A stretch of 64,000 bases of DNA from Crocinitomicaceae bacterium (GTDB taxonomy: Bacteria > Bacteroidota > Bacteroidia > Flavobacteriales_D > Crocinitomicaceae), in the NCBI GenBank assembly GCA_029249445.1, contig JAQWHI010000009.1:62001-126000 (forward strand). The letters run 5' to 3'. The notes beneath the pieces were generated by a model, which saw only the letters and a list, made by a program, of their open reading frames with translations, was not told the origin of the DNA and did not search any database. The translations under genes were made by a program, and so were the position numbers. Positions 5,127 to 7,051 of the stretch are shown here, one piece after another (within the stretch, counting starts at the first letter, position 1; each line of letters starts with the position of its first letter).

Positions 5127-5303
5127 GTTTAAACAAAATCACTTGCAAATACTTGAAAAAGTCATTTTTGAAAGAGGGACTCGTTTCCGTATATTCGATT
5201 AAGTTTCGAAGATCAAAATAAAAATGTTTAACAAAAAGTTGTAAAAGTTAAACAAAATATATACTATTGTTTAATGATTGATCAAAAAGGTTAAACAAAA
5301 CTA
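5127..5303. promoter_or_regulatory. Cluster of GTTAAACAAAA-type repeats upstream of the PTPS-folE operon
   Basis: GTTTAAACAAAAT (5127-5139), TGTTTAACAAAAA (5225-5237), GTTAAACAA..TTGTTTAAT (5247-5275; inverted repeat TTAAACAA/TTGTTTAA, 11-nt spacer), GGTTAAACAAAACTA (5289-5303). Confidence 0.6.
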
Positions 5304-5329: not shown

Positions 5330-5737
5330 ATGAAAACGGCTGTAATTCGGAAAGCACATTTTAATGCGGCACATCGCCTTCACAATGATGACTGGTCCGC
5401 TGAAAAAAACAAAGATGTCTTTGGAAAGTGTAACAATCCAAACTACCACGGCCACAATTATGACCTGGAGGTTAAAGTTGTGGGTGAGGTTAATCCGGAC
5501 ACAGGATATGTTATGGACATGAAGATTTTGAAACAATTCATCAAAAGTGAAGTGACTGAAATATACGATCACAAAAATTTAAATCTAGATGTACCTGACT
5601 TTAAAACAACCATTCCAACAGCAGAAAATATAGCCCGTGCAATTTACGAAAGGCTGAGAGTACATATTACAGCTCCCCTTGAATTAAAAATTAAATTATA
5701 TGAAACATCGCGAAATTTTGTTGAATACCCAGCTTAA
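5330..5737 (+). CDS. 6-pyruvoyl-tetrahydropterin synthase / 6-carboxytetrahydropterin synthase family protein (PTPS-type motif)
   Basis: FGKCNNPNYHGHNY (CxxxxxHGH), GYVMDMKILK, DHKNLNLDVPDF, PTAENIA. Confidence 0.9.
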   Translation: MKTAVIRKAHFNAAHRLHNDDWSAEKNKDVFGKCNNPNYHGHNYDLEVKVVGEVNPDTGYVMDMKILKQFIKSEVTEIYDHKNLNLDVPDFKTTIPTAENIARAIYERLRVHITAPLELKIKLYETSRNFVEYPA

Positions 5738-6428
5738 CGGCAAGAATGGAACCAATGGAAAAAATGGGATCAATGTAGATCGAGCATTTCATGATGCCAT
5801 TGGTGAGCAACATGCATTTACCTCAATTGAAACACCAATGCGGGAGGATGCGTTTCTTATTACCAAAGAAGAAAAAAAACAAATTATTGCAGATTCGTTC
5901 GAGAGAATTATGCACACACTTGGCCTCGATATGGAAGATGACTCGTTGCGTGGTACACCATACCGTGTTGCAAAAATGTATGTTGACGAAATTTTCTCAG
6001 GCTTGGATACCGCGAATAAGCCTCAAATAGCACTCTTTGAAAATAAGTATGCGTACAAAGAGATGTTGGTTGAGAAAAATATTACTTTTTTCTCCAACTG
6101 TGAGCATCATTTTGTTCCTATAATAGGGAAGGCACATTTGGGGTACATTTCTAATGGTAAGGTCATCGGTCTTTCCAAACTCAACCGCATCGTCCAGTAT
6201 TTTGCAAAACGCCCACAGGTTCAAGAGCGTCTAACGGAACAAATTGCGAGCGAGTTACAAGATATTCTGGGCACTAAGGATGTTGCTATAATTATAGACG
6301 CAGAGCATTTGTGTGTTTCTTCTAGAGGTGTACAAGATGTCAATTCATCTACTGTAACGTCATTCTTTGGAGGGCAATTTAATGATGCAGACAAGCGCAA
6401 GGAATTTCTTGAATACATAAAATTGTGA
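5700..6428 (+). CDS. folE: GTP cyclohydrolase I
   Basis: DDSLRGTPYRVAKMYVDEIFSGL, NITFFSNCEHHFVPIIGKAHLGYI, GLSKLNRIVQYFAKRPQVQERLT, DAEHLCVSSRGVQ; the overlap with the upstream gene depends on the exact start. Confidence 0.95.
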   Translation: MKHREILLNTQLNGKNGTNGKNGINVDRAFHDAIGEQHAFTSIETPMREDAFLITKEEKKQIIADSFERIMHTLGLDMEDDSLRGTPYRVAKMYVDEIFSGLDTANKPQIALFENKYAYKEMLVEKNITFFSNCEHHFVPIIGKAHLGYISNGKVIGLSKLNRIVQYFAKRPQVQERLTEQIASELQDILGTKDVAIIIDAEHLCVSSRGVQDVNSSTVTSFFGGQFNDADKRKEFLEYIKL

Positions 6429-6649: not shown

Positions 6650-7051
6650 TCATTCGTTGACGGGTGTCCTGCGAATTTCAAAGTCAATGTGCGCCTTCTC
6701 ACAGGCACGAGACGCGCACTCAGCGTATGTTTTTATGTTTTTGTCTGCCACGGTATCGCCCACATAAAATAGTATCTTTTCAATCTTTTTTTCTTTGATT
6801 TGCTTTGCAACAAAACTACTATGAGTTTCTATTTCTTTAGGCATTAACAAATGATTGTAGTCGGGAATTGTCTGATCTGGCCCAATCAATCCATATTTCC
6901 CCGAAAAAATCATGAATTTAGAGTGTTCTGATTTTGCCTTTTCTGCCACAGAATTTATTCTTTTACTAATGTATCTCTCTATCGCTCGAATTGGGCTTTT
7001 AGCAGGATTCTTTCGCGCTGAGCAATAAGTGCAGAAAACGGTCAGTGGCAT
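6650..7051 (-). CDS. DUF6884-like hypothetical protein
   Basis: N-terminal CTYCSARKNPA and FMIFSGKYGLIGPDQTIPDYNHLL motif typical of DUF6884-like proteins; family call from recall only. Confidence 0.5.
   Translation of the reverse strand: MPLTVFCTYCSARKNPAKSPIRAIERYISKRINSVAEKAKSEHSKFMIFSGKYGLIGPDQTIPDYNHLLMPKEIETHSSFVAKQIKEKKIEKILFYVGDTVADKNIKTYAECASRACEKAHIDFEIRRTPVNE

Follow-up and report, generated by a model that had tools for sequence, protein, structure and literature searches.

Described light-responsive regulators

CarH is known as a repressor that blocks RNA polymerase in darkness and lets go on illumination. The Bacteroidota system described below resembles the CarH/LitR family, as represented by CarH of Thermus thermophilus and CarH/CarA of Myxococcus xanthus, in the combination of a MerR helix-turn-helix with B12-binding helical and Rossmann domains, in the Wx9EH and ExHxxG motifs, in a gene adjoining carotenoid genes, and in operators placed over promoters. 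It differs from known CarH systems by its operator, a 32-bp 9-14-9 dyad that is often found in tandem, and by a predicted regulon that is much wider (rhodopsin, photolyase, folE-PTPS, glutathione peroxidase, TspO and fasciclin genes).

The closest described case is that of the class II LitR proteins of Pseudomonas (PplR1/PmlR2), where light-inducible folE, photolyase and cryptochrome genes are under the control of a LitR/CarH-type repressor acting at paired half-sites, TGTACA-N12-TGTACA (PMC9758184). The Bacteroidota dyad reads TTGTTTAAC-N14-GTTAAACAA, and is therefore a different type of operator rather than a class II LitR site; its predicted regulon is also wider. Moreover, the cobalamin-binding residues are retained in the Bacteroidota proteins, whereas PmlR2 works as effector for a short LOV photoreceptor. 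In Rhodobacter sphaeroides, the singlet-oxygen regulon of RpoE(ECF11)-ChrR responds to photo-oxidative stress and includes photolyase (PMC6852236), but it is governed by a sigma/anti-sigma pair, with no dyad operator; the ECF factors of Bacteroidota are themselves targets of the dyad in some families, and are absent beside crtI in the genome studied here. In Vibrio cholerae, a gammaproteobacterium, the MerR-like VCA0056 is encoded in the same operon as a photolyase, and the blue-light response goes through VCA0056 and ChrR (PMC5241685); no operator of the dyad's form is described there. Among Bacteroidota, light induces crt transcription and carotenoid synthesis in Chryseobacterium lacus, by a regulatory mechanism that was stated to be unknown (PMC7064467). 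Searches on the dyad motif, on Bacteroidota CarH and on light transcriptomes returned no description of the operator or of its regulon in the open-access literature.

Tandem dyads upstream of the PTPS-folE operon

The window, i.e. the whole 64-kb stretch of DNA that was analysed, contains two tandem 32-bp inverted repeats of the form given above, 43 bp apart and with one mismatch each: dyad 1, ATGTTTAAC-N14-GTTAAACAA, at 5224-5255, and dyad 2, TTGTTTAAT-N14-GTTAAACAA, at 5267-5298, neither of which has a strand. The initial annotation had proposed here a multi-site operator upstream of folE, made of four related elements. All the sequences that it quoted were found at about the coordinates it gave, and the two tandem dyads support an operator of several sites, but its exact anatomy had been misread. 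What had been taken for a dyad at 5248-5274 straddles the junction of the two dyads, joining the right arm of the first to the left arm of the second, and the element placed at 5127 is an isolated half-site, TTTAAACAA (5128-5136, forward strand), which has no partner at N14 and is probably a chance occurrence. The 43-bp spacing that had been pointed out is real, and tandem dyads at other loci are 42-46 bp apart. More generally, neighbouring dyads are mostly separated by 21, 33-35, 42-46, 53 or 63-64 bp, values close to whole helical turns.

The clustering itself, also remarked upon in that annotation, is not due to chance. Four TTAAACAA/TTGTTTAA words fall within the 294-bp intergenic region, a number reached in none of 5000 dinucleotide shuffles, and not a single TTGTTTAAC-N14-GTTAAACAA dyad was obtained in 5000 shuffles of the same region. 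Over the 64-kb window the bare words are present at background frequency (7 found vs 7.9 expected from dinucleotide shuffles), and for this reason they are uninformative on their own.

Downstream of the dyads, the operon starts with a gene for a 6-pyruvoyl-tetrahydropterin synthase of the PTPS/QueD family (5330-5737, forward strand), followed by folE, encoding GTP cyclohydrolase I (5700-6428, forward strand). The two genes overlap by 38 bp. In distant Bacteroidota too, namely a MAG of Chitinophaga and another of a marine flavobacterium, they overlap to a similar extent, 37-38 bp. On the opposite (reverse) strand, a gene for a DUF6884 protein lies downstream of folE (6650-7051). GTP cyclohydrolase I is encoded twice in the genome: the window's folE is the second paralogue, preceded by dyads, and the housekeeping copy (G000:C8:100010-100561) has none. 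Many relatives show the same division, and in some only the housekeeping copy is retained. The dyad is conserved upstream of the orthologous PTPS-folE genes and missing from the paralogues. Among the readable relatives within the best matches (L153-L165), the PTPS-linked or inducible type of folE (65-100% identical to the window's) had a dyad 7-74 bp upstream in 13 cases out of 13; for housekeeping folE (39-45% identity to the window's) the score was 0 out of 15. No dyad precedes folE genes of greater divergence (mostly 52-69% identity), among them a PTPS-linked pair in G033, and in G012 PTPS and folE are apart, each with its own dyad. An exact dyad (L226:1053-1084) was also found on a contig labelled Candidatus Kuenenia, probably a misbinned Bacteroidota contig, close to a folE that shares 62% identity with the window's.

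Distribution of the dyad and of CarH-like regulators in Bacteroidota

The initial annotation had named three findings that would count against it, namely a motif at background frequency, no conservation at orthologous folE/PTPS genes, and a genome lacking a MerR-type candidate; all three were looked for, and none was observed. In 40 relatives, 81 dyads with at most one mismatch were counted, vs 4 for the reversed control, so that the dyad is far commoner than its control. Its spacer is nearly fixed: when any length from 2 to 32 was allowed, 37 of 43 exact dyads had a spacer of 14, the others having 15 (four dyads), 13 (one) or 5 (one). A scan for exact dyads over all species gave at least 120 stretches, and 77 of the 80 titles among the matches listed name Bacteroidota.

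Conservation extends across the phylum, in front of genes of the regulon. At the fetched loci, which hold 196 distinct dyads, a regulon-type gene was found downstream of 164 (as the first gene for 159, within three genes for 5), a fraction that is somewhat circular because the reference set of regulon-type genes was built in part from dyad-adjacent genes. Another gene was downstream of 27 dyads and no gene downstream of 5; only one of the 196 lies inside an ORF. As a measure of background, PTPS, folE and one marginal match at 24% identity are the only ones of the window's 42 ORFs that fit the reference set. About 16% of the dyads precede genes outside this set, including those for secreted proteins of the DUF4397, Porph_ging and Ig-domain kinds; these genes may belong to the regulon as well or may be there by chance. 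Targets recurring in distant taxa are crtI-crtB, ECF sigma-crtI, rhodopsin, lycopene cyclase/carotene dioxygenase, folE, fasciclin, SRPBCC-SDR-photolyase-cryptochrome and TetR-ABC1. Genes for rhodopsin and for lycopene cyclase/carotene dioxygenase are linked to dyads in relatives of the present genome.

The genome itself (2.33 Mb) was scanned with sites of at most two mismatches taken as regulon, the limit being one mismatch for counts. Allowing up to three mismatches gave 15 matches to the motif and 16 to the reversed control, hence no excess, and since the control was equally frequent, sites with three mismatches were not counted. Eleven dyads were found with at most two mismatches. Two precede PTPS-folE, and single ones lie upstream of the glutathione peroxidase-SRPBCC-CIA30-photolyase operon, of a second glutathione peroxidase gene, and of the TetR_C_23-ABC1 kinase-DUF2805 operon. 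Two more precede fasciclin-TspO-MerR, and another two a CIA30/DUF3050 cluster; this cluster adjoins the other MerR gene as well as carotenoid genes (crtI, phytoene synthase, idi and lycopene cyclase). The last two are a dyad with two mismatches (L033:4668-4699) upstream of a Bac_rhodopsin gene (L033:3839-4591, in G000:C22), and one lying between two large surface-protein genes. A match with three mismatches at the MerR-1/crtI junction (L028:12834-12865) was not treated as a site.

A link between the repeats and a light-responsive regulator of the MerR/LitR type had been put forward in the initial annotation, together with the remark that the window encodes no regulator. The remark is correct: both candidates of the genome, two CarH-like MerR genes at G000:C10:463959-464837 and G000:C2:233540-234415, are located outside the window. 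Both proteins match Pfam MerR_1 and B12-binding_2 above the gathering cut-off; no sequence match to PF02310, which represents the Rossmann part, was obtained for the CarH-like MerR, and against the NCBIfam CarH equivalog it scores 80 bits, short of the cut-off of 400. In the PDB, the sequence of MerR-1 matches T. thermophilus CarH best (E 5e-14), and the AlphaFold model of MerR-1 (mean pLDDT 85) is likewise closest in fold to CarH, along its full length and over about 300 columns, with an identity to TtCarH of only about 20% over the fold alignment. The motifs of adenosylcobalamin contact, Wx9EH and the lower axial histidine in ExHxxG, are present. At the adenosylcobalamin-contact positions, given in TtCarH numbering, 67 homologues are almost uniform: W131 is kept in 67, E141 in 66, H142 in 65 and H177 in 67. 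In MerR-2, the final G of ExHxxG is replaced by S. The genome also has a cobalamin adenosyltransferase gene, and a MeaB gene adjoins MerR-1. MerR-1 directly precedes crtI-crtB-idi-crt genes, an arrangement found throughout the phylum. Judged by domains, residues and gene linkage, the regulator appears to belong to the CarH/LitR family.

The dyad follows the CarH-like gene at three taxonomic levels. In 24 genomes of the same genus, both were present in 15 and neither in 6, with disagreement in 3 (p=0.0013). In the order (199 genomes), 107 of 175 CarH-positive genomes had a dyad vs 1 of 24 CarH-negative ones (p=4e-8), and in the phylum (198 genomes) the figures were 25 of 47 vs 0 of 151 (p=4e-19); all these p values are optimistic, because the genomes are related. 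Joint absences of dyad and CarH-like gene recur within several genera. No dyad with at most one mismatch was present in 68 of the 175 CarH-positive genomes of the order, and dyads were seen in two genomes in which CarH was not detected, G002 (83% complete) and G201 (93% complete). Dyad and CarH-like gene are also adjacent: a dyad is found 5-417 bp from the CarH-like gene in 26 genomes with coordinates compared, the chance of this being about 0.0007 per genome. At the level of sequence, the light-responsive MerR/LitR hypothesis therefore appears well supported. We are fairly confident that the dyads are tandem operators of a MerR repressor of the CarH/LitR type, which would bind adenosylcobalamin and be released by light.

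Promoter overlap, rival explanations and proposed light switch

TAnnTTTG, the consensus of the -7 promoter element in Bacteroidota, was located relative to 162 dyad sites oriented toward the downstream gene. It occurs at offset -5 in 38 of them (9.8 by chance), with its TTTG reaching into the left arm, and at offset +16 in 33 (1.7 by chance), in which case the right arm starts with its G. With these two offsets far above chance, the dyads overlap the core promoter, as expected of CarH/LitR operators. In the layout of classical MerR activators, the dyad lies wholly inside an over-long -35/-10 spacer; here the dyad is 32 bp long and contains or overlaps the -7 element, and is therefore not an operator of that class. 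Start codons often adjoin the dyads, a few bp downstream. At the PTPS-folE operon, a -7 element is predicted at offset -5 from dyad 2 (TACTATTG, one mismatch to TAnnTTTG; 5262-5269, forward strand), and a -33 TTG is predicted 20 nt before it (5239-5241, forward strand) from sequence and from geometry, by analogy. Dyad 1 would then extend over the -33 element and the spacer upstream, and dyad 2 is predicted to overlap the -7 element and the transcription start. A -7 element within or over the dyad fits a repressor that blocks RNA polymerase, and it is from this layout that we infer repression rather than activation.

The opposite sign has nevertheless to be weighed. MerR proteins are often activators, and the same CarH-like MerR might bind the dyads as such, or might sense mainly singlet oxygen and photo-oxidative stress, or cobalamin status. 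Glutathione peroxidase, TspO and other oxidative-stress genes of the regulon would suit a stress sensor, as would the MerR-like protein of V. cholerae, which acts with ChrR in the blue-light/photo-oxidative response (PMC5241685). We nevertheless hold this to be unlikely, given the repressor-like layout just described, with start codons a few bp further on, the near invariance of the adenosylcobalamin-binding residues, and the presence of rhodopsin, retinal/carotenoid and photolyase genes in the regulon.

Two other products of the regulon could in principle bind the dyad, namely the TetR_C_23 protein (G000:C10:19328) and the crt-adjacent ECF sigma factor of other families, both of whose genes are themselves preceded by a dyad; we consider this very improbable. 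TetR_C_23 shows no association with the dyad at the genome level (23/44 vs 85/155 genomes, p=0.86) and was not detected in some genomes rich in dyads, G010 and G023 for example, and it was rejected. As for ECF sigma factors, they recognise -35/-10 elements and not 32-bp dyads, and there is no ECF gene between MerR-1 and crtI in the present genome. In other families, the gene order CarH-like MerR, dyad, ECF sigma factor, crtI, crtB (L148, L149, L152 and several of L206-L322) suggests a relay through the ECF sigma factor.

Since the 9-bp arms could pair and often adjoin the start codon, the inverted repeat might also act as an RNA hairpin (thermosensor, attenuator or riboswitch). This was rejected, and its probability is in our view minimal: changes in the arms are one-sided and break the pair, a C-A being found at 20 sites vs 7 with a T-G that preserves a wobble, and no compensatory pair was seen in a search confined to sites with at most one change. 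Besides, at many sites the left arm shares bases with the -7 element, so that part of the dyad would lie upstream of the transcript, and an Rfam search for the dyad hairpin gave no match. Chance repeats in A+T-rich DNA deserve practically no credence, for although GTTAAACA and TTAAACAA alone are no commoner in the 64-kb window than in dinucleotide shuffles, this explanation is already refuted by the shuffles, none of which in 5000 yields the dyad, and by the reversed-control patterns, which are almost absent.

Returning to the light-released repressor, we infer that the CarH-like protein binds the dyads and that light is the signal. In the dark, the adenosylcobalamin-bound repressor would sit on the TTGTTTAAC-N14-GTTAAACAA dyads over the promoter and so silence PTPS-folE. 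On illumination the cobalt-carbon bond would break and the repressor would fall apart, leaving the promoter free, and pterins would then be made alongside carotenoids, rhodopsin, photolyase, glutathione peroxidase and TspO. They might serve, for example, as antenna cofactor of photolyase/cryptochrome or as antioxidants. Because the dyad precedes genes for protection from sunlight and for light harvesting, and tracks the gene of a B12-based light sensor, the repeats very probably form the light switch of a pterin-making operon, as part of a light-response network that spans the phylum.

We lean, more cautiously, towards a broader proposal, in which a single B12-dependent receptor of the CarH type, with an operator code of its own, governs the response to light across non-gut Bacteroidota, including the switch to rhodopsin phototrophy. 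If this is true, the rhodopsin, carotenoid, pterin and DNA-repair genes of these abundant aquatic bacteria are controlled by light together with the supply of B12. Many Bacteroidota respond to light, and a 32-bp code with its probable receptor would allow light-controlled genes to be predicted in their genomes. It would connect vitamin B12 with rhodopsin phototrophy and would supply genetic tools with a native light switch. Testable functions also follow for poorly known genes, such as those for DUF3050, DUF2805, CIA30, fasciclin, SOUL and DUF4397 proteins.

On two Bacteroidetes contigs (L258:1033-2860 and L299:2024-3851), an exact dyad reaches as far as the start codon of a gene for a 599-aa secreted protein with an Ig domain and a Por_Secre_tail (domains checked for L258), which is a possible further member of the regulon.
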